A stretch of DNA of 27,940 bases. It comes from a virus. The position numbers and the translations under genes are program-made. The notes beneath the pieces are model-generated. The model did no database searches, was not told the DNA's origin, and worked only from the letters and a program-made list of their open reading frames with translations. Positions 1 through 11,093 of this stretch are shown here, in pieces. Position 1 is the first letter of the stretch. Every line of letters begins with the position of its first letter. The stretch lies in the IMG/VR virus record IMGVR_UViG_3300010148_000087, positions 1-27,940 of that record, one strand, 5' to 3'.

Positions 1-224
1 TCAGCACCTTGATCTTTTGTGTTTTGCTTTTTATCTTTTGCTTCTTCTTTCGTCATAGCTCCTCCGCCTCCTTTAATCAAATCACTTGTTGACCCCATCA
101 TATCTTGTTGAGATGGTGATTTATCGTCATATTTAAAAGGAGAATTACCACCGTCTTGCATATACGTTCTGCGTCTGCCGCAGCTCGTTACAGGAAAAGG
201 GTTATTTTTTTGTTTATAAGCCAT
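1..224 (-). CDS. Hypothetical phage protein, N-terminal part (runs off window)
   Basis: This reading frame starts with ATG at 224 and stays open for 74 codons to the window edge, so the C-terminus is missing. It begins MAYKQKNNPFPVTSCGRRR, continues with a Gly/Asp-rich stretch (MQDGGNSPF), and then has a charged Lys/Glu-rich region after a run of four glycines. There is no signal peptide, membrane segment or recognisable catalytic motif in the visible part. Its ATG shares one base with the stop codon of the upstream M15 peptidase gene (TAATG), which indicates translational coupling and supports this start. The MAYKQK-type opening followed by Pro/Gly-rich, disordered-looking sequence is one I associate with small conserved proteins in marine phage contigs, but I cannot assign a function. 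Confidence 0.7.
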   Translation of the reverse strand, partial: MAYKQKNNPFPVTSCGRRRTYMQDGGNSPFKYDDKSPSQQDMMGSTSDLIKGGGGAMTKEEAKDKKQNTKDQGA

Positions 225-685
225 TATATTACTTTATATTTTGTTTTACCATTTGATTTGTACGCCTCTAAACATCTGTTTCTATTATCTTCGTCGTTTA
301 CATAACTTACGTGTAACCAGTTTGGGTTTTTGTCTGTACCAAACTCCCATATTAACTGATCAAAGTTTAAGTTATCTTTTATCCAATAATACATGTCGGC
401 GTTAGACATGTGTCCAAATGTGTCGTCAATATCCATTGCTTGACCAGCCATGTGCTGTGATTTTTTAGCACCACCTATAGCTTTGTTAAGTTCTGGTCCA
501 CGATAAAACGAATTTATCTTTATAGGAGCTCCTACGTGAGCTCTAAGGGGTTCAAATATTTTTTCAGCCGTAACTTTCATTGTGGCTAAATGCTCTTCAG
601 TAGGCGTGTTATCTATACCGCGTCTATCTGCAGTTCTGCTATACATACCTTCGCGATAACTTACGTGTTTACTTATTCTTTCCAT
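224..685 (-). CDS. M15-family peptidase (VanY/D-Ala-D-Ala carboxypeptidase-like), probable endolysin
   Basis: This is probably the phage peptidoglycan hydrolase, a zinc peptidase of the M15 family that cleaves peptide cross-links in the cell wall. Of 153 residues, the family signature is visible as SQH at 76-78 followed by MDID ending the SxHxxGxAxD block (H78 and D85 as zinc ligands), and the third ligand is H125 in NWLHVS. R62 in FYRGPELN fits the conserved Arg of the family. It has no signal peptide, so access to the wall would need a holin or lysis. The gene overlaps the PAP2 gene by 17 bases upstream and shares one base with the next gene. An M15 domain could instead belong to a virion-associated wall enzyme used at entry. 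Its place at the end of the cassette with membrane proteins favours lysis. Confidence 0.88.
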   Translation of the reverse strand: MERISKHVSYREGMYSRTADRRGIDNTPTEEHLATMKVTAEKIFEPLRAHVGAPIKINSFYRGPELNKAIGGAKKSQHMAGQAMDIDDTFGHMSNADMYYWIKDNLNFDQLIWEFGTDKNPNWLHVSYVNDEDNRNRCLEAYKSNGKTKYKVI

Positions 686-1232
686 CTATTTTATCTTTTA
701 CATGTTTAAACATATCTTCTCCTATTTTTTCGCCAAGATCTGAGTCTGATTTAAAATGTGCCCTAGCTATACGCCTGCTCATAGATATGTCTTTTCCTTC
801 TTTTTCAAACTCAGCCTTATGTTCTGGGTACATTTTACCTAGAATTTTACCTATTAATACACCTTGAACAGAGTGGCCAGAAGGGTATGATGGTGTTTTC
901 ATAGAATTCATTGCTATGTCTTTTAGCTTTATATCAAAATTAGGGGCTAAATGTTTTGGTCTTGGTCTTCCAAAGTGATTTTTTAATTTTAAAATTTTTT
1001 CAGCACTTTGTTTTACTATATTTGAAATTAGTTCTGCAGGAAAATCTAGGTTTAATTTTTCAGCTAGTTTTTTAAAAGACTTTTCTTGATCGTCTTTATC
1101 CTTTACAAACTTAGGATCCTGTCTTAAACCTTTTATTTCTCTTAACTCTTTAAGTGTTGTTAAAGAATCATTTGCAGGAGGAGACATTTTTTTGTAAACG
1201 TCTATATTAAATCCTTCTAACATATTTTTCAT
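669..1232 (-). CDS. PAP2-superfamily phosphatase (class A acid phosphatase-like), soluble
   Basis: All three motifs of the PAP2/class A acid phosphatase fold are intact. They are K82-x6-R89-P90, P117-S-G-H120, and S152-R153-x5-H159-x3-D163. H159 is the expected phosphohistidine nucleophile and H120 the acid/base residue. The family removes phosphate from lipids (phosphatidate, undecaprenyl pyrophosphate) or from small phosphomonoesters. At 187 residues it is short, and the N-terminal 70 residues are charged. I see no signal peptide and no convincing transmembrane helices, so it looks cytosolic unless released by lysis, whereas most bacterial relatives are membrane or periplasmic enzymes. The start codon overlaps the stop of the upstream membrane gene (ATGA) and the 3' end overlaps the M15 gene. 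The substrate is unknown. Family assignment is firm; a lysis or envelope role is inferred from position only. Confidence 0.87.
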   Translation of the reverse strand: MKNMLEGFNIDVYKKMSPPANDSLTTLKELREIKGLRQDPKFVKDKDDQEKSFKKLAEKLNLDFPAELISNIVKQSAEKILKLKNHFGRPRPKHLAPNFDIKLKDIAMNSMKTPSYPSGHSVQGVLIGKILGKMYPEHKAEFEKEGKDISMSRRIARAHFKSDSDLGEKIGEDMFKHVKDKIDGKNK

Positions 1233-1579
1233 CTTCTTCTTCTTTTACACTTTTTTCTAAATAAATCATCTATTTCTATAACAAGGCCAACTGTTATTGC
1301 GCCATACATACTAGCAGCAATATCTTGACCATCACCATGACCTTTGTCTATAAAAACTTCTTTAAAAGTTGCCACAGCCAAAGTAGTAGCCATAGAGTAT
1401 ATTATAGCTTTCTCTTTACTTCTAGTTCTTTCGAATATAAGATCGTGAGATATACTAGTTATAGCTACACCAGCTAAGTAGTGCATAGCTTTATCTTCTT
1501 GCACTTCCCAACCATACAAGTCTAACTGAGCTAGACAGATACTTGGTAGTAACAGTAATAAAGCTATAATTTTTTTCAT
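1229..1579 (-). CDS. Secreted/membrane protein resembling YfiM (DUF2279), lysis-cassette member
   Basis: The 116-residue protein opens with MKKIIALLLLLPSICLAQ, a Sec signal peptide or N-terminal anchor. A likely cleavage site is A17|Q18, with Gln at +1 as in Bacteroidetes exported proteins. The rest has D29-K-x2-H33, K73-E74, D86 and small-residue-rich hydrophobic stretches around 33-47, 58-72 and 86-102, and ends in a basic tail (KKCKRRRR). The DKxxH, KE and DxxA...GA pattern resembles the YfiM/DUF2279 family of small envelope proteins. The hydrophobic segments and basic tail would also suit a holin-like role. The ATG shares one base with the upstream stop (TAATG) and the stop overlaps the PAP2 start (ATGA). 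The family call is tentative. Confidence 0.72.
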   Translation of the reverse strand: MKKIIALLLLLPSICLAQLDLYGWEVQEDKAMHYLAGVAITSISHDLIFERTRSKEKAIIYSMATTLAVATFKEVFIDKGHGDGQDIAASMYGAITVGLVIEIDDLFRKKCKRRRR

Positions 1580-1809
1580 TATTTCTTTTTTCTACCTTTT
1601 CTAGCATTACCTTTTATAGCGTCGTCTATATCACCAAGTTGATTACCAACTTCTTTTATAGCATCCGCTACATCAGCTAATTCTTGAGCTGTAAGCTTAT
1701 ATCTTTTTTTAATCTCTTGTACTGTAGCTATAGCTTTTTCATCTATAGTGGTTTTACTCCATAAAGCTTTCCACATATCTTTCCAGTACTGTTTAGTTAA
1801 TTTCCACAT
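1579..1809 (-). CDS. Small basic hypothetical protein with helical pattern
   Basis: This 76-residue protein is not recognised. Its N-terminus is Trp-rich and basic (MWKLTKQYWKDMWKALW), consistent with an amphipathic helix that could lie on a membrane. A middle heptad-like helix follows (residues about 23-65), with a basic end KGNARKGRKKK. There is no signal peptide or enzyme motif. It is separated by three bases from the upstream thioredoxin-like gene and overlaps the next start by one base. That makes it part of the coupled envelope cassette despite its size. A peripheral membrane helper is possible but unproven. Confidence 0.75.
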   Translation of the reverse strand: MWKLTKQYWKDMWKALWSKTTIDEKAIATVQEIKKRYKLTAQELADVADAIKEVGNQLGDIDDAIKGNARKGRKKK

Positions 1810-1812
1810 AAT

Positions 1813-2223
1813 TTAAAATTTGTTTGCGTTGTTTATTTCGTTTATTGACTCTTGTATTTCAACTAAATCAGTTGGTAGCAGCAGGTCTAAACCAGCTTTA
1901 AATACAACTTCTTTAATTCCATCTTTAAATATTATAAGAGTAGGAGCCATTCTAACTCTATATTTCTTTTTAGCTAAAGGAGCTTCAGCTATATCAACCC
2001 TATAGTATGTAGCGTCTTTTACTTTTTCCCACTCTGAAAAACAGTTTTCTTTATTAAACTCTGCCCAAAACTCAATTAAAACTGGCTTGTTATCTTCGTC
2101 GCCAAAAGCAGACTTACCGCTTATAGCTTTTTCAAAATCAGAATCAGTTAACCAGTATTCTTCTGGAACATCAACTTGACCAAATGATAAAAATGGTATT
2201 AAAAGTAAAATTAAGTATTTCAT
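1813..2223 (-). CDS. Secreted thioredoxin-fold protein lacking the CxxC active site
   Basis: The 136-residue protein begins with a Sec signal peptide, MKYLILLLIPFLSFGQ, with likely cleavage at G15|Q16. The mature part has a thioredoxin-fold core. The beta strand PVLIEFWAEF (residues 47-56) matches the family's strand before the active site, and MAPTLIIFKDG (92-102) matches the cis-Pro loop and following strand, with P94 as cis-Pro. The active site is altered: an ungapped alignment of WAEFNKENC to WAEWCGPCK puts Asn57 and Asn60 where the two redox cysteines should be, leaving one offset Cys61. Disulfide exchange in the usual way is therefore unlikely, and a binding or chaperone-like role in the periplasm is more plausible. 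It shares one base with the upstream gene (TAATG). The fold call is good; function is unknown. Confidence 0.82.
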   Translation of the reverse strand: MKYLILLLIPFLSFGQVDVPEEYWLTDSDFEKAISGKSAFGDEDNKPVLIEFWAEFNKENCFSEWEKVKDATYYRVDIAEAPLAKKKYRVRMAPTLIIFKDGIKEVVFKAGLDLLLPTDLVEIQESINEINNANKF

Positions 2224-2510
2224 TATCTATTTTTTTGTATTTCGTAAAGTCTTTGATCTATCTTATCTATAGTTTCTTTTATTTCTTCTACATCATCTTG
2301 AGTGTCCATAATTGTTTGACGAATTAATTCATCTTTTAAATCATATTCAACTCTATCAATTACAGGTTTAGGCATTTCCATTGCAAGAGCTATATCTGCT
2401 TGCATTATAAAATACATACTAGCTAGTGAAACTACTCCACCTATTATTAATCCTATTGTTTTTAAATCTAGAGTTATCTTTGTGTTCTCTCCTATTTGTG
2501 GTGCTGCCAT
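2223..2510 (-). CDS. One-pass membrane protein with coiled-coil tail (holin/spanin-like candidate)
   Basis: This is a 95-residue protein with one clear transmembrane helix at about residues 19-37 (IGLIIGGVVSLASMYFIM). Acidic and charged sequence follows, and a C-terminal heptad-rich coiled coil (about 65-93, containing VEEIKETIDKIDQRL). The short N-terminus (MAAPQIGENTK) is polar and has no signal cleavage site. This topology suits small phage lysis proteins such as holins or inner-membrane spanin subunits, and its neighbours include a peptidoglycan peptidase. It has neither the paired outer-membrane lipoprotein of a two-component spanin nor several helices like class I holins, so a specific name is not justified. 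There are two bases between it and the upstream gene, and its stop overlaps the next start. Confidence 0.8.
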   Translation of the reverse strand: MAAPQIGENTKITLDLKTIGLIIGGVVSLASMYFIMQADIALAMEMPKPVIDRVEYDLKDELIRQTIMDTQDDVEEIKETIDKIDQRLYEIQKNR

Positions 2511-2512
2511 GA

Positions 2513-3748
2513 TTATCTAAGTGTAAGGTTAATTCCAAATGTTGTTATAAAAAACTCTGAGTCCCACATCTTAGTATACTCACCTTCAGCAAATACACCT
2601 ATTGATTTACTAAGCTTCCAGCCAATGTTAGCGCCAGCTTGGTAATCCCACCATTGCTCGCCCTTTGCGGCGTCAGCTAAACCATATTGATCCCAGCTGT
2701 TTCTATATAAATATGATAATGGTATTCTACCTTTGTCATCTTCATCACCCATAACATATTTATGATAAGGTAAAAATGCAGATCCGTATACATGGGCCCA
2801 AAACTTAGACTTGTAATGGTACCAGTCAAAACCTACAACCGGACTTACTAAGCCAAAAGTTCCTGTGTTACCTAAAATATCGTTATTATATCGTGATATT
2901 AATTGTTTATAAGGACCATCTCTAAACTGAGGATCAGATGAAGCTACTATTTGTCCTTCTGGGTTCCACCAAAAATAACCACCAACGTTTTCTTCTTCAC
3001 CAGTTATAGGGTTATAAATTTCAGTAGTGTAATAAGCGTCTTGATAACCATACTCATAAGCTAGTTCATACCAGTAATTTTCTTGATTACCATTAGCGTC
3101 TAAAGCACTAACCCATATTTCATAAGGATTAACACCATAAACTCTTTCATGTGTTCTAAATGCTGCACCAGCAGATATACTAAACTTTTTACCAATGGGT
3201 AATCTAGCTCTTACGTCTACAGCATTGTAATTAAAATCAAAAGCACCTTGGTATCTTGATTCTAATTTTACAATGTGGTATTTACCTGTGTGTCTTAAAA
3301 AATATCTTTGATTATTCCACTCTTCACCTCTACGTCTTTCTTTTTCAAAATGAAATAAATATTCCCAACCTTTTACAGCGGATGTAGGCGCTATTAAAGC
3401 ATTTTGTCTTTCTACGTTTTGATCACCAGTCCAAAAATTACCTGGTTTTCTTTCATAATCAAATCTACCTAATTTACGTATACCAAAACCTATTCTATAA
3501 TCAGATGGAAAATACTCTGTAACATCAACAACTTGAGGTACATCGTACAAACCAGCACCGTCAGGTTGTCTTATTAAGTATTTTTTATCAGAAGACTCAT
3601 ACGCAGCTCTATAATCTCCAGCAGCATATACTGTAGCATATTTAAAAAAGTCTTCATAAAAACCTTTAAAAAAGTTTTTCTTTTCTTTTTCTTGCGCGTT
3701 TATAACAAACGTTAGCAGAGTTAAAATAGTAATCAGTATTTTTTTCAT
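2513..3748 (-). CDS. Predicted outer-membrane beta-barrel protein with Sec signal peptide
   Basis: The 411-residue protein starts with a classic signal peptide (MKKILITILTLLTFVINAQ, likely cleavage A18|Q19). It is then rich in Tyr, Phe, Trp and Gly with many alternating polar/hydrophobic strands and aromatic pairs such as YFWWNP, VGFDWYHY and QWWDYQAG. The C-terminus (SIGVFAEGEYTKMW, then FFITTFGINLTLR) reads like two closing barrel strands joined by a short loop, although the last residue is Arg rather than the usual Phe. Tailed phages seldom carry such exported proteins. Known phage examples act on the host surface, for example by masking receptors or excluding other phages. No virion role is indicated because virion proteins are not Sec-exported. 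One base separates it from the upstream giant gene. The barrel prediction is by eye; the precise family is not recognised. Confidence 0.8.
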   Translation of the reverse strand: MKKILITILTLLTFVINAQEKEKKNFFKGFYEDFFKYATVYAAGDYRAAYESSDKKYLIRQPDGAGLYDVPQVVDVTEYFPSDYRIGFGIRKLGRFDYERKPGNFWTGDQNVERQNALIAPTSAVKGWEYLFHFEKERRRGEEWNNQRYFLRHTGKYHIVKLESRYQGAFDFNYNAVDVRARLPIGKKFSISAGAAFRTHERVYGVNPYEIWVSALDANGNQENYWYELAYEYGYQDAYYTTEIYNPITGEEENVGGYFWWNPEGQIVASSDPQFRDGPYKQLISRYNNDILGNTGTFGLVSPVVGFDWYHYKSKFWAHVYGSAFLPYHKYVMGDEDDKGRIPLSYLYRNSWDQYGLADAAKGEQWWDYQAGANIGWKLSKSIGVFAEGEYTKMWDSEFFITTFGINLTLR

Positions 3749-3749
3749 G

Positions 3750-6700
3750 TTAATTGTTTTGGTAGTATTTTTTTCTTATAGCATCTCTTCTAGCTTTTTG
3801 AGAAGCTGATATTTTTTTCTTTCTCTTTTTTCTCTTTTTTAACTTTTTCTTTAAACCTTCAAGTTCAGGATCTATTTCAGCATCAACATCCCAAGAGTTC
3901 CAACCTAAGAGCATAGCTAGTCTTTGCCAGCTTTCATTTCTACTATTAGCGGCACCTCTTAAGTTGTTGTATTTATTAACAACTCTATCTAAAGGTATGT
4001 TTGTAATTGCTGAAATTACGTTTCCACCTGTTTGTAATATAGGATTATCTAAACTAAACCCTTTATATGATATTACATCTTTATTAAACTTGTACGTTTG
4101 TATACCAGAATATAATTTTCTTAATTTAGAACCAATAGGTGGCGATAAGTTTGCAGCTTCTATTACCGTGTAAGCGTGATCAGCGTTCCAACCTTTTTCT
4201 TCTTGCTCCATGAATTTTAATATCATGTTTTTAATAGTAGAAAGACCAGCACCAAATATACCAGAACCTCTAAGTATAGAGTCTGTCATAGTGTTTGCTA
4301 TTCTAGCTTTTTTCTTACCATACTTGTCTTCGTCATCGTCATCGTCAAATAACATCGCAAATAAAGCTGATTGCATAGAAGCAAATATAAGGTTTTGTAT
4401 TGCCCCGTAGTAAACTATTTTAGATAAATTAGTCTTAACATCACCTCTGCCATTTATTAAATCAAGAAAAGCTTTCTTTATTAATCTAGTATACTGCATA
4501 GGTGTATTTTGAAAAGCTAGTATTAATCTACCTAAAGGACCAGCTTGCTGTTGGCTAATCATATCAGGCCTTGAAGACTGTTGAGATACTTCAGTAGTTT
4601 CTTGAAAATCTTTAAAAGCTTGGTCTAAAGCTTGCTGTTGTGTCATACCTTCTTTTAGGTATGTGTTTATTCTGTTTCTATAAAAAGCAGCACCACCTAC
4701 AGATATTGCAAAGCTATCTGCTATTTGTGTTGGTGTAAAACCTATTCTAAGCAAATAATTTAATATAGCTTGAGGTTTGTTTCTAGCGCCGCTCATTGCT
4801 TCAGCTATTTCAGATTCGTTTACGTCTCTACCAATACCAGATCTTCTTTGCTTTAGCATGTCTGAATTAAATAACGTAACAAAATCTTTTGCAAACTGCT
4901 TGGTGTTTAATATAGCTTTGGCAAAATTTAAAGGATTATTATCACTCCAGTTTATAAAGTTAACAAAAGATATAGTCTGTAATATAGCCGATCTCATGTT
5001 AAAAAACATTATAGCACCTACACTATTATTCACCCAATTTGAGAAAGAATTAACTAATCTGTTCTTACCAAAGTTCCTATTTGTGCCATTTTCCATGCGG
5101 TAGAGCATATCTTCTAGTGCTTCTCTAAAATTACTACCGTATAAAGCCTCTATTTTATTTAAGTTTTCTTTGCTAAATATAACTTCTTTGTTTGCTATCC
5201 ACTCTGATAAAAACTCTTTTCTACCTACTTTATCTGTTATATCTTTTATATCTGTTGCTAAGTTACCTACTAGCCAGTTTTCTCCAGGAGCAGGAAAACC
5301 TCTTTCTGAAGTCATTAGTTCTATAGCTTCAGCAAATTGTTTTAGCTCTTTGTCGTTTTCAACAATATCTGTTAATCTTTTTACGTCTGTTTTAGATAAA
5401 CCAGGAATTGTTATACCAGCTTTAGTCCATATATAAACTCTAACAGCCGTGCTGTAAGTAAAGTTATTGTAAGGTGTTATTTTAGATAATTTTTTAGCAG
5501 CTTCAGGATATGCTTTTTTAAGTGCTCTAAAGTTGTTTGCTAAAGCTTGTTTTGTTCTATTTAATTCGTCCATTGCTCTAGCAAATGGCTTTACAAGAGC
5601 TTTGTTAAAAAATTCCATTTGAGCTTCACCAACTTTACCTTTTCCTAAAAAGCTATATATTAAACCTACAAAATCTTCTGCAGATGGTGGTAAGAAAAAT
5701 TTCCACTTACCAATGTCTTTGCCTCTAGATCTAGCCGCTGCGTCAGAAAATCTTTTTTCAGACTTAACACCTTTTGTTTGCTCTAGTATATCGTTAAACT
5801 GCTCTCCCATTGTTCTAGCAAACTGTAGTTTAGCCTGTTGAACTTCTCTTTTAACATCTATTACATCTAAAACATCTTGAACGGCTTTTACATTTTTATA
5901 AGCATCATCAGCAAAATAAAAATTATTATAACCTTCAGCAGCTTTGCTTATTATCCAATCAGACTTAGCCGATGGTCTACCATCTGCTAAACCTGTTATA
6001 TTTTCTATAGGTATAGTAAGACCTAATCCTTTTAAGAAAGCGTGTATTGCTATTGCGGCTTCTTGCGGTCTTGCTGTTAATATAAAAATATCTTTACTTG
6101 TAAACTTGTCTTGTCGTCTCATAGCCAAGTCAAATAAAGGACCTTTTTTACCTTCTACAACTTTATTAAACTCGCTGAAATCAAATGTAGCGCCAGCAGC
6201 TTCAAGATCTGCAGACTGTAAAGCAAACTCTGTAGCGTTTATTTTACCTTGAGTTCCATCTGGAAGAGTATAACCAACCTTACTATTTGATCTAGCTATA
6301 GTGTCATCAAAATCAAATACACTAATACCTTTTTCAGGCGCAAAAGGATTTCTAGCTACTTGTATTGCTTTGTTTAATATAGTTTGTTTTTCTAAGTTTG
6401 TTCTAGAAAACTGTAGATTAGACATTTTAGCATGGTTCTCACCATATTTAGTTTCATCTGTTAAAGATTCTATAGCAAACATGTTGTTCATACCAAGAGT
6501 TAAGCCGTCAAAATACCTTAACGTTTCGTGCATAGACTCGTTCCAGTAAGCTGGCATTACTTTTTGCCTTTGTATGTTTATGTTATTATCCATTATCTCT
6601 GGAACTATAGCTACTTTATACCTGTCTTTCAAAGCATTTAAATCTATAGGAGCATTATAAAAATGCTGGGTAAGCTTTAAAACTATATACTCTGTAGGTA

Positions 6701-9700
6701 TTATATGTTCATAAGTAACAGTGTCAACATTAGGACCAACAAAGTAATATTCTACAGGCGCAGCTGCTTTTAGCATACTAGCCATGTTAGATTTTAAGCT
6801 CATCATGGTCATAGCAAAATCAAGAGGATTACCATTTTTTCTTATATAGGTTAATAAACCTATTAAATTATTCCAAGCCTCGTCTGCAGATTTTTTTCTA
6901 ATATCTAGCTCATCTTTAAAAGCTTGTTTACTTTTAACTCTTTTGTTTTTACCACTACCTAAATAACCAGATTGAGCCGGTGTTGTTGTAAGGGCTTTTA
7001 CATTTTTTTCATTTAAAATAGTAACGTTTCCTTCTAAGTCAGTAATTTCAAGTAAATTACCATCTAGATCTGTTATGCTTAAAACACTTGTTCCGCTGCC
7101 TTTAGTAATTGTGTTTATACGAATACTCTTAGGTTCTAGTATTTTATTTAAACTGTCTATATAATCTTGATTTCCTGAAAATATCTGGTTTCTTTTTACT
7201 AAAAAGTATTTTTTACCAGCACTAGTCATGTGACCTCTAAAGTGCTTTAAATGATTTATTACATCGTCTACACTATTTATAGTTTCATCAGCGTATGACA
7301 AATAGTGATTTCTTTGTCTTCCTACGTATTTTTTAAGTGTAAATATTTGTCCAAAGTTTTTAAACTTTTGAGTAACACCGTCTACAACTATATCTAATTT
7401 ATTTAGATTAAAAACTCTAGACAAGTTAGTTGCTACTGAGTCTGTTGCAACTTCCTCAAGTATCATTTTACTTAAATCAACGTTTTGATCTTCGTATTTA
7501 ACAAATTTTGTTATAGCTTTTGTAATTGCTGCTCTGTAATCAGCCACGTCTTTAGACGTCCAAACACCTGGGTCCAATATTTTATTTAACATTAAACCAA
7601 CAGTGCTACTAGTAATAGAATCGCCTAATTCTCTTATACCTTTTACTATAGCGTCTTTGTTTTGTACTATATCTTGAGCTTGGTTTTCTGTTATTGAAAA
7701 CTGTAGTGTTGTATCAAACCCTCTTGCTTCTCCTTTTTTTCTATCTAAAGCGTTTATTAGTTTGTCTATAGAAGCTTCTATTGCTGCTGCATTTATGTCT
7801 GACTGGCTTAAGTTAGCAATGTCAGCTAGCTCGTTCATAAAGACAGGATCGCTTTTTAATTTTATAAGTTCATTTTTAACAAACTCATTAGATATGCTTA
7901 TAGCATATGTTTTCTGTCTAGCTAGCAAAGTGGTATAACCTCCAACTGTATGGTGTTTTATCCAGTCTATTTTGCTAGGCTTTGTCATTTGAAAAGTACC
8001 TTTACCTACAGCTGTTTTTTCTCTACCAGTTTTAGTTAAGTTAAAAAGCTTTCCATAAGACTTTTTTATAACATCAAGTGGTAAGGCGGCTATGCTTACA
8101 TCATAATTTTCTCTAAGATGTAATTCGTAGTTAGCGTCAATAACAACTTCGCCTTTCTTCTTACTTATATTACCTAAGTTTTTAGTTACTATTTTTCTAA
8201 CTTCTTTATTAACTATGCTTTCCATAGAGTTAATAGCTGCTTCTAAGTTAGTTCCAGTTTTAGCTACAACTAGTTTTAAGTTTTTTGATACTTCGTTAAA
8301 TATAGATTTTTTTAAAGCTGGTGTTAGAAAAGACTCTTTTTTAGATCTCAACTTGTCAAAGCTAGTTAGCTTTCTTGCTTTTCTACCTTGGTCTACACTA
8401 CTTTGTTTTGATGTTTTTTGAGCAACAGATGATTTAAGATTACCATCTTCAGTTGTCATACCTTCTAACACAGCGTCTTTAACGTAGTATTTAAAAGCTT
8501 CTTTTGATCTTTCTTTAAAAAACGTATTTATATAAGCTGCAACGTTTTTATATTTTTGCTTTTCTGTAACAAAGTCTTTTACTAAACCCACTACGTTTCT
8601 AGCTTTTGATGTTTGTTTTTGACTAGGTATTTTGTCATAAAGCATCATAGCTATTATATCTTCTTTGTTTTGATCTATTATATCCTTTTGATCTTTAGTG
8701 TAGTTAGAGCCATCTCTTAGTGATTTAAAAGTAGACTCAGCCATACCCCTATATTTGTCGGCTATCTCAAAACCAGCAATTTCTTTATTTTCGTTTGCAT
8801 CATATATTCTATTGACTTCAGCAGCGTCTTCAGTTCTAGACATTTGAACTTTATCTACTGTATCAACATCTTTTATTTTTACTCTGGCTTTGTTTTCAGC
8901 GGCTGTTATAGCGTCTGAAGCCTTTTTACTTATTTTACCTTTTTTAATGCTAGTGTTATACTCTTTCATAAAGTTGTATACGTCTCTACCATTGTCAAAA
9001 GATATATTATCAAAACCTTTACCTACAAAAAATCTTTTTATTACTTCACCTAGTTTTTCAAAAAATCCTTGATCATAATTTATTTCGTTTTTTTGTATTA
9101 AGTCTGAAAAATAGTTTAAATACTCAGTGTCATAATTATTAGGATCAACTCCTCCTTTTTTCATAGCATTGTAAACTGCTCTGTCGTTTGTTCTAGAAAC
9201 TCTAGATCTAAAAGACTTTACAAACTTACCTTGCTGTTGTTTATTACCAACTAAAGAGTTTAAAACAGGGTGTAAAAACTCATGACTAGCAACAGATACA
9301 GCGCCAACTTTTTTAGCTTGTGTTTTATTTATAAATATTTGACCTTTTCCAACAAATACACCATCAGATCCAGATGCTATTTCTTTTGCTTTGTCTATAG
9401 TTATACCTTGGTTGTCTGCTATTTTTTGAAAATACGTGTCCTCGTTTTCTTCAACATTTATGTCTAAACCTCTTTTTTTAGCTTCTGGCTGTACTGCTTT
9501 TAAGTTTTTATTAAACGATGCTTCAAATTTATCATCTATAGCTTTTGCTACAGCTTGTTTTCTTTGCTCTATAGTAACATCTAATTTATTGCCTTTGTAT
9601 TTTTCGTTTATAGCGTTTATTTCTTGCTGTATCTCAGATAACCTAGTGGCGTTTCCAGTTTGATTTTTACTTAAAAACTTTTGTTCTTTCATCAACTTTA

Positions 9701-11093
9701 TAACTGTTGATCTATCATCACTGTTGTTTATTCTACTATCTACCTTTTGGTCTAAATCTATATTTTGACGCCTGTTATTTATAAGTCTTTCTACAGATGG
9801 AGAGTTTTCTACTTTTATATCAGCAGACACATAGGCTTCGTCGTCCATTAACTTTATAGCGTCATGAAACTCTTTACCATTCATTTTTTGGCCGTTAATA
9901 GAGTATTTAGGCGCACCTGACATTGCTGCTTTACCGATTTGCACTCCTGTAAATGTTTTGTCTGCAAAACCTTCTATTAATATCTCTTCAAGATTAAACT
10001 CTTGTCCAGCTGCTTTTTGTCCAAAGTATTCAGATCCTATACCACCAGCTGTTTCAACTCCTGCGGCTGTAGCAACTCTAGCTGCTCCAGAAAGAGCACT
10101 AGAAGTTGTTTTCGCTACACCTTTAAAAGCGGCTCCACCAGCACCACCAGTAACTAAACCTGTTACGGTATCAAAAGCACCTATAGTAACACCTCTTGCT
10201 AAGGCTTTACTTTTGATATCATTAAGTTTTTCCTCATCATTAGTAAGTGTTCTAACCCAGTCAAACCTTTCTGCGTCAGACATACTTCCCCAATTTAAAC
10301 CTTGTTCTTCAGCAGACTCTTGCATTAGCTGTGCTGTTGTCATACCTGTTTCCATAGCCCCACTTACACCACCAAAGAAACCAGCTAAAGCCGCTGTTGG
10401 AACAGTAACTATTTCTTCAGGTAAGGCGACTTGTGGACCAGCTTGGCCTAATAAAGCCACTGTACCACCAGCAGCAGTTGCACCAGCTGTTCCGGACGCT
10501 AAAACTTCATTGCTATCATAAGCCGCGGAAAACATTTGTGCTAACGACTGTGTTGTGTATTGTGCTAAAGCAGTAGGATTATCCCAGTAAGCACCAACGA
10601 AACTAGTAAAACCACCATAACCTTCTTGTTTAAGAGCTTCCATTTTTTGACTAGCAGCTATCATTTCATCTGTTTGACCAGAGCTCTCCATGTCTCTACC
10701 TGCTTTGATAAAGTCCATAACCTCTTCATCTGTCATGTCTTTACCTTTTCTGTATAAATCCATAGATTCATCAACACTTGCGCCAGCTGTTATACCAGCC
10801 ATAGGAGCACGCACAAAAACATCACTAAGACCATCTGTAAGCCAATTTTTACCAAACGTGTCTTCTAACCAAGTGTTCTCTTCTTTACTGTTTTCAAAAT
10901 CATCTGGATCTACTAATTCCGAAGAACCAGCTGCCGATTGTGAGGCCGTATTTTTTTTCGACCCGGTACTCGCCTCCTTTATTACTGGGTCTGATGTCTT
11001 TCCCGATGTGTAACTTCTAACTACTCCAGCTATAGCCTCTTCTGGCTCACCGGCTTTTACCATTCGGTCAACAATTTTTTCTAATTCTTCCAT
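3750..11093 (-). CDS. Giant polyvalent internal virion/ejection protein (HExxH and HAD phosphatase-like domains)
   Basis: This 2447-residue protein, over a quarter of the window, is probably packed in the virion and injected with the DNA. Regions in order: an N-terminal charged segment; Gly/Ala-rich hydrophobic stretches at about 195-250 and 300-360, likely membrane-active; an HExxH metallopeptidase-like site at 604-608 (HEFLH); and long helical regions. A complete HAD phosphatase motif set follows: D1594-x-D1596-x-T1598, T1673 in ILTARP, K1710, and D1729-D1730. Near 2182-2210 is a segment (GPLGRLILAFQNTPMQYTRL) like those in large polyvalent-protein-associated domains, then a hydrophobic stretch at 2225-2250, an acidic run and a Lys/Arg-rich tail. 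It corresponds functionally to T7 gp16 or crAss-like cargo proteins. Upstream are two smaller ejection-type proteins. Motifs are directly visible; enzymatic activity is inferred. Confidence 0.87.
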   Translation of the reverse strand: MEELEKIVDRMVKAGEPEEAIAGVVRSYTSGKTSDPVIKEASTGSKKNTASQSAAGSSELVDPDDFENSKEENTWLEDTFGKNWLTDGLSDVFVRAPMAGITAGASVDESMDLYRKGKDMTDEEVMDFIKAGRDMESSGQTDEMIAASQKMEALKQEGYGGFTSFVGAYWDNPTALAQYTTQSLAQMFSAAYDSNEVLASGTAGATAAGGTVALLGQAGPQVALPEEIVTVPTAALAGFFGGVSGAMETGMTTAQLMQESAEEQGLNWGSMSDAERFDWVRTLTNDEEKLNDIKSKALARGVTIGAFDTVTGLVTGGAGGAAFKGVAKTTSSALSGAARVATAAGVETAGGIGSEYFGQKAAGQEFNLEEILIEGFADKTFTGVQIGKAAMSGAPKYSINGQKMNGKEFHDAIKLMDDEAYVSADIKVENSPSVERLINNRRQNIDLDQKVDSRINNSDDRSTVIKLMKEQKFLSKNQTGNATRLSEIQQEINAINEKYKGNKLDVTIEQRKQAVAKAIDDKFEASFNKNLKAVQPEAKKRGLDINVEENEDTYFQKIADNQGITIDKAKEIASGSDGVFVGKGQIFINKTQAKKVGAVSVASHEFLHPVLNSLVGNKQQQGKFVKSFRSRVSRTNDRAVYNAMKKGGVDPNNYDTEYLNYFSDLIQKNEINYDQGFFEKLGEVIKRFFVGKGFDNISFDNGRDVYNFMKEYNTSIKKGKISKKASDAITAAENKARVKIKDVDTVDKVQMSRTEDAAEVNRIYDANENKEIAGFEIADKYRGMAESTFKSLRDGSNYTKDQKDIIDQNKEDIIAMMLYDKIPSQKQTSKARNVVGLVKDFVTEKQKYKNVAAYINTFFKERSKEAFKYYVKDAVLEGMTTEDGNLKSSVAQKTSKQSSVDQGRKARKLTSFDKLRSKKESFLTPALKKSIFNEVSKNLKLVVAKTGTNLEAAINSMESIVNKEVRKIVTKNLGNISKKKGEVVIDANYELHLRENYDVSIAALPLDVIKKSYGKLFNLTKTGREKTAVGKGTFQMTKPSKIDWIKHHTVGGYTTLLARQKTYAISISNEFVKNELIKLKSDPVFMNELADIANLSQSDINAAAIEASIDKLINALDRKKGEARGFDTTLQFSITENQAQDIVQNKDAIVKGIRELGDSITSSTVGLMLNKILDPGVWTSKDVADYRAAITKAITKFVKYEDQNVDLSKMILEEVATDSVATNLSRVFNLNKLDIVVDGVTQKFKNFGQIFTLKKYVGRQRNHYLSYADETINSVDDVINHLKHFRGHMTSAGKKYFLVKRNQIFSGNQDYIDSLNKILEPKSIRINTITKGSGTSVLSITDLDGNLLEITDLEGNVTILNEKNVKALTTTPAQSGYLGSGKNKRVKSKQAFKDELDIRKKSADEAWNNLIGLLTYIRKNGNPLDFAMTMMSLKSNMASMLKAAAPVEYYFVGPNVDTVTYEHIIPTEYIVLKLTQHFYNAPIDLNALKDRYKVAIVPEIMDNNINIQRQKVMPAYWNESMHETLRYFDGLTLGMNNMFAIESLTDETKYGENHAKMSNLQFSRTNLEKQTILNKAIQVARNPFAPEKGISVFDFDDTIARSNSKVGYTLPDGTQGKINATEFALQSADLEAAGATFDFSEFNKVVEGKKGPLFDLAMRRQDKFTSKDIFILTARPQEAAIAIHAFLKGLGLTIPIENITGLADGRPSAKSDWIISKAAEGYNNFYFADDAYKNVKAVQDVLDVIDVKREVQQAKLQFARTMGEQFNDILEQTKGVKSEKRFSDAAARSRGKDIGKWKFFLPPSAEDFVGLIYSFLGKGKVGEAQMEFFNKALVKPFARAMDELNRTKQALANNFRALKKAYPEAAKKLSKITPYNNFTYSTAVRVYIWTKAGITIPGLSKTDVKRLTDIVENDKELKQFAEAIELMTSERGFPAPGENWLVGNLATDIKDITDKVGRKEFLSEWIANKEVIFSKENLNKIEALYGSNFREALEDMLYRMENGTNRNFGKNRLVNSFSNWVNNSVGAIMFFNMRSAILQTISFVNFINWSDNNPLNFAKAILNTKQFAKDFVTLFNSDMLKQRRSGIGRDVNESEIAEAMSGARNKPQAILNYLLRIGFTPTQIADSFAISVGGAAFYRNRINTYLKEGMTQQQALDQAFKDFQETTEVSQQSSRPDMISQQQAGPLGRLILAFQNTPMQYTRLIKKAFLDLINGRGDVKTNLSKIVYYGAIQNLIFASMQSALFAMLFDDDDDEDKYGKKKARIANTMTDSILRGSGIFGAGLSTIKNMILKFMEQEEKGWNADHAYTVIEAANLSPPIGSKLRKLYSGIQTYKFNKDVISYKGFSLDNPILQTGGNVISAITNIPLDRVVNKYNNLRGAANSRNESWQRLAMLLGWNSWDVDAEIDPELEGLKKKLKKRKKRKKKISASQKARRDAIRKKYYQNN

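Follow-up and report, generated by a model that had tools for sequence, protein, structure and literature searches.

A thioredoxin-fold protein in a phage gene cluster

The window examined here is a 27,940-nucleotide stretch of viral DNA (IMG/VR record IMGVR_UViG_3300010148_000087, positions 1 to 27,940), and all window features for which coordinates are given lie on its minus strand. At its focus is an open reading frame (1813..2223) for a 136-residue protein, hereafter the Trx-like protein, which the first-pass annotation had described as a secreted thioredoxin fold with both catalytic cysteine positions replaced. The 411 residues assigned to it there are in fact its bases; by coincidence, 411 is also the residue count of the protein encoded two genes upstream. 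Overlapping the Trx-like gene by 1 base is the gene tm (2223..2510), which encodes a predicted inner-membrane protein of 95 residues with one hydrophobic segment and a coiled-coil-like tail. Beyond it lies the gene for the 411-residue protein (2513..3748), an exported, probable outer-membrane β-barrel. On the other side are genes for a 76-residue charged protein (1579..1809; ORF list), a YfiM-like exported protein (1229..1579; NF008028, E = 1.4e-6, under the equivalog cut-off; phrog_26616), a PAP2-like phosphatase (669..1232; PF01569, E = 7e-6, just under the cut-off; also PhoC-like, far under the equivalog cut-off) and a peptidase M15 endolysin (224..685; PF08291, E = 9e-17; phrog_894 endolysin, E = 6e-31). 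The 76-residue (frequent), YfiM-like and PAP2-like neighbours were excluded from the cassette core because they are variable. A Pfam hit to MtmB in the window fell under its cut-off and was discarded.

The Trx-like protein matches PF00085 at 29.0 bits (E = 1.1e-6; Pfam cut-off 23.5 bits), 44 of 44 sampled relatives match this family too, and a profile search of the PDB gives an E value of 2e-6. The AlphaFold model (pLDDT 85.5, pTM 0.79) matches T. thermophilus thioredoxin in Foldseek (E = 4.2e-8), and VIA superposes it on D. radiodurans Trx2 (7d6l) over 102 residues with a Z score of 14.5 and an rmsd of 2.3 Å. All of these agree, and the window protein clearly has the thioredoxin fold, beyond chance similarity, as had been proposed from the letters. 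The motifs behind that proposal, PVLIEFWAEF (residues 47–56) and MAPTLIIF (92–99, with the cis-Pro position P94 at 1942..1944), are present as quoted, and the counterpart of WCGPC reads F56-N57-K58-E59-N60, which places Asn57 and Asn60 at the catalytic Cys sites. In an alignment with E. coli TrxA, the second helix is shortened, and E51 and R75 correspond to D26 and K57 of TrxA.

Both catalytic cysteines are replaced throughout the family

Approximately 350 relatives of the Trx-like protein were confirmed in IMG/VR viral contigs, which come from uncultured phages. Among 65 distinct close relatives, E51, F52, F56, N57, N60, F62, W65, R75, R91 and P94 are invariant; five of these positions (F56, N57, N60, F62 and W65) lie in a rebuilt active-site segment, F56-N57-K-E-N60-C61-F62-S-E-W65 (2029..2058). 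Of the three residues singled out for a conservation check, N57 and N60 are thus retained and Cys61, one position past the second catalytic site, is not, being C, K or S in the 65 relatives and A in locus L129; a monothiol role for Cys61 was ruled out by this variation. Within the clade comprising L052 and L058–L080, Lys at position 61 often coincides with Cys at position 81 (18 each among the 65).

A scan with the barrel protein uncovered two further subtypes, T2 (shorter, with the motif FSAxF[VT]KxN) and T3 (INAKWNxSN), beside the T1 subtype of the window protein. Iterative profile searches started from T1, T2 or T3 converge on the same 362 open reading frames, 245 of them distinct, and profile–profile probabilities between subtypes are 97–98%, with signal peptides included in the comparisons that involve T2. 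T1 and T2 match thioredoxins directly, and the fold assignment of T3 rests on its profile relation to T1 and T2 together with weak hits. Across the 245 distinct sequences, position 57 is occupied by N (205), V (26), A (5), T (4) or L (3) and position 60 by N (222), S (6) or A (1); neither is ever Cys. The cis-Pro position is Pro in 243 of the 243 aligned sequences.

A CxxC motif occurs in 0 of the 245 distinct members of T1, T2 and T3. Homologues with an intact motif, which would have pointed to a simple local mutation, were not found in this set, nor was a CxxC-bearing ancestor within the family, and membership among redox-active thioredoxins was rejected on the same count. The alignments thus indicate that cysteine loss is a family trait and no local mutation, and a protein with Asn replacing both cysteines cannot, judged by its sequence, perform dithiol–disulfide exchange. 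The earlier view that the fold has been kept while its redox chemistry has been lost therefore appears to hold family-wide. The Asn codons at N57 and N60 switch between AAT and AAC, and comparable fourfold-degenerate third positions in T1 differ in 56% of comparisons, which argues that the residues themselves are under selection.

Compared with the thioredoxin family (PF00085; E. coli TrxA), the Trx-like proteins share the fold, the cis-Pro and the overall sequence pattern, and T1 passes or nears the family model. They differ from it not only in their missing CxxC and shortened second helix but also in their export, in an additional conserved C-terminal motif, AGLDLxLP, and in being tied to a phage membrane gene.

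Predicted export and a probable Bacteroidota host

Residues 1–15 of the Trx-like protein form a signal peptide (2179..2223) with predicted cleavage before Gln16. The first residue past the signal peptide is Gln in 240 of the 240 readable family sequences, and it is always preceded by S, A, G or T. Gln directly after the cleavage site is the Q-rule signature of Bacteroidota (PMC5837995). The site is of the signal peptidase I type, and a lipobox was found in only 1 of 245 Trx-like proteins by a loose pattern. By this signature the Trx-like protein is exported, in line with the original claim, and the suggestion that it might serve as a processivity-like partner finds no support, since every one of the 240 readable sequences carries a signal peptide with this signature at its cleavage site. 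The window portal protein is related to portals of Flavobacterium, Cellulophaga, Tenacibaculum and Maribacter phages, which, with the Q-rule signature, makes the host very likely a member of the Bacteroidota.

The distribution of the cassette was examined by tblastn against an isolate-phage collection. For the Trx-like protein, the hits were confined to ordinary thioredoxins of phages and to chance matches (E of 0.1 or worse); the barrel, tm, T3 and the giant protein described below retrieved no cassette member, and T2 gave one weak partial hit that was no cassette member. The portal does match Flavobacterium, Cellulophaga and Maribacter isolates in the collection, and these lack the cassette. 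When 99 genomes from a single bacterial order were searched for cellular representatives, weak matches emerged, the nine best being ordinary WCAPC thioredoxins, besides one already-known phage cassette locus. A Mycoplasmataceae MAG contig (L131, 1–180) opens with a family fragment joined to unrelated sequence and is probably a misassembly.

A membrane-protein gene accompanies the Trx-like gene

The partner gene is the new point of this analysis. The Trx-like gene lies directly downstream of tm in 354 of 361 cases, the remaining 7 starting too close to the locus edge; the loci were gathered as the best 80 per scan, such that exceptions to the pairing may exist, and, as they overlap and were found via the family, the 354 are not independent events and correspond to 252 distinct pairs. 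The gap between the two genes, overlaps included, is at most 5 bases in 331 of the 354, with a median of −1. The hydrophobic segment of tm spans residues 18–37, its C-terminal part is charged and heptad-like, and the charge pattern suggests an N-in/C-out orientation. Against spanin and holin families, tm gave no convincing match (an Rz-like spanin PHROG reached E = 0.03), and against the PDB it gave coiled-coil noise only.

The layout tm–T2–barrel–tm–T3 occurs in 27 loci, and tm is nearest to the tm of its own Trx subtype in 249 of 252 pairs. These patterns indicate that the pair has been duplicated as a unit and that the Trx-like protein is tied to tm. In T3, the trees of Trx and tm correlate at 0.64, compared with 0.11–0.13 for either against the endolysin. 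In T1, the Trx–tm and Trx–endolysin correlations are equal at 0.43, and T1 alone would not reveal a special closeness of the pair relative to other cassette genes. Tandem doubling of tm itself is common, with the order barrel–tm–tm–T1 in 46 loci (L003, L004, L101 and others).

These observations bear on two other explanations. The family could be a decayed, functionless thioredoxin, which would account for the loss of the cysteines and nothing else; strong conservation in hundreds of phages, the invariance of N57 and N60 in close relatives, intact reading frames and duplication of the unit leave this idea with almost no probability. The Trx-like protein could also be a decoy, as suggested initially, in which the dead fold competes with Trx- or Dsb-like proteins for partners and thereby inhibits host periplasmic disulfide enzymes. 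Retention of the fold and of the cis-Pro, a substrate-binding element of thioredoxins, fits such a role. However, the active-site face has been rebuilt, unlike a simple Cys-to-Ser trap, nothing points to a partner from the host, and the link that is conserved is to a phage membrane protein; we consider this explanation very unlikely.

The barrel and the genomic setting

The best structural matches of the 411-residue protein are nearly all outer-membrane barrels, with modest TM-scores and a model pLDDT of 74, and the protein is probably an outer-membrane barrel, as the first reading had it. Its gene almost always adjoins the tm–Trx pair in T1 and T2 loci, and the T2 Trx and barrel trees correlate at 0.49. 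Both facts are compatible with a dedicated periplasmic chaperone, anchored by tm, that would hold the unfolded barrel until insertion by BAM, and might do so for further exported proteins of the phage, in the manner of the holdase part of CnoX/YbbN; redox-poor holdases with a thioredoxin fold do exist. By contrast, for many T3 pairs the flanking sequence retrieved contains no barrel gene, and the invariant partner is tm and not the barrel. The adjacency behind the original chaperone suggestion therefore holds in T1 and T2, but a chaperone for the barrel is an unlikely account of the family.

CnoX and YbbN are cytoplasmic chaperedoxins that combine a thioredoxin domain with a TPR domain. They may be analogous in using a thioredoxin fold for protein binding more than for dithiol exchange. 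The Trx-like protein differs in being a single exported domain, and its 136 residues leave no room for a TPR domain, for which reason membership of this group was rejected.

The cassette occurs on contigs of up to 213 kb with differing backbones. Of the 189 loci whose downstream flank is 4 kb or longer, 140 have an M15 peptidase or an amidase within 6 kb of the cassette, Amidase_2 taking the place of M15 in some large phages; the other quarter or so have neither within this distance, and some of these carry the endolysin-related gene phrog_33083. In L129 and L132, the cassette adjoins what by eye appear to be ribonucleotide reductase (nucleotide-metabolism) genes, after which come genes for a small membrane protein and an endolysin-related product. 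A PAP2-like gene accompanies barrel–tm–Trx in small and large phages alike (the window; L143, 6563–7210; L160, 6543–7187).

The presence of the cassette in unrelated backbones could reflect superinfection exclusion or receptor masking, in which the barrel, lodged in the outer membrane of an infected host, would block other phages while tm and the Trx-like protein provide periplasmic support or a block to DNA entry; the literature describes phage-made envelope proteins in such roles. Yet the cassette usually neighbours the endolysin gene and structural genes, a position that points to late expression, and no cassette gene matched the defence or exclusion families of PADLOC, making exclusion quite improbable.

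Comparison with lysis systems and proposed role

Lysis is suggested by the hydrolase-rich setting. T4 RI is not known to have a thioredoxin fold, and no sequence relation is known between the T4 T/RI pair and the tm–Trx pair. The two share a layout, predicted on the tm–Trx side, of a one-segment membrane protein with a periplasmic domain and an exported protein with a cleavable signal; they differ in that some cassette loci carry separate holin genes. In T4, the antiholin RI is an exported protein whose signal peptide is cleaved off; it binds to the holin T at the periplasmic domain of the latter (PMC8385771). In spanins, the inner-membrane partner is N-in with coiled coils (PMC6139136). Like lambda Rz and Rz1, tm and the Trx-like gene are an adjacent, often overlapping pair in a lysis region, and tm may resemble Rz in its predicted N-terminal membrane segment and coiled-coil-like tail. 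In place of an outer-membrane lipoprotein, the Trx-like product is a globular thioredoxin fold; membership among two-component spanins with this product as the lipoprotein partner was rejected on its signal peptidase I site and missing lipobox.

The lost chemistry, the selected face and the invariant, co-duplicated membrane partner are best read together as a binding module for tm. After cleavage before Gln16, the Trx-like protein would reside in the periplasm of the Bacteroidota host, where its cis-Pro and rebuilt face (F56, N57, N60, F62 and W65) would most probably serve as a surface for binding proteins. The most likely partner is tm, whose coiled-coil tail would be directed into the periplasm. 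With the outer-membrane barrel, the two would form an envelope complex within a lysis-associated cassette that either opens the outer membrane in a spanin-like manner or times lysis in the manner of the T4 T/RI layout. The separate holin gene in L257 argues against tm as the holin there and favours the outer-membrane step. We infer the physical binding of Trx-like protein and tm, their topology in the cell and the role in lysis, and we give about an even chance to the Trx-like protein being a redox-dead periplasmic binding module, partnered with tm, in a lysis or envelope-opening complex. Counted against this reading are the tied T1 trees, the quarter of loci without M15 or amidase, the setting of L129 and L132, and the unconvincing matches of tm to spanins and holins. 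Of the functions first put forward, a periplasmic binding role in general is thus probable, given the fold, the lost chemistry and the predicted export, but the processivity candidate is not supported and the host-inhibitor candidate is very unlikely. More tentatively, and as a possibility that we hold to be doubtful, the tm coiled coil, the redox-dead Trx and the barrel may constitute a trans-envelope machine of uncultured marine Bacteroidota phages, unrelated to known spanins and antiholins and with duplicated tm–Trx modules, whose task would be to break the outer membrane or to set the time of lysis.

Outer-membrane disruption and lysis timing have been little studied in Bacteroidota phages, and the cassette is a candidate for that step. 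As judged against the open-access literature and the family databases searched, this large family of hundreds of members was previously without a name and appears to have turned an enzyme fold into a binding module; no relevant report of a redox-dead phage thioredoxin in lysis was found in that literature.

Two further features of the neighbourhood were observed. Adjacent to the barrel gene, the window encodes a virion-size protein of 2447 residues (3750–11093) with a HAD-like stretch, VFDFDDTIA, and a metalloprotease-like HEFLH motif, whose kin are stand-alone genes beside the cassette in large phages (L143, 10187–10756; L160, 9715–10284). Finally, lipoprotein-like genes of two families (~145 and ~180 residues) recur near the cassette (L012, 7354–7791; L164, 6407–6952) and could encode outer-membrane partners.
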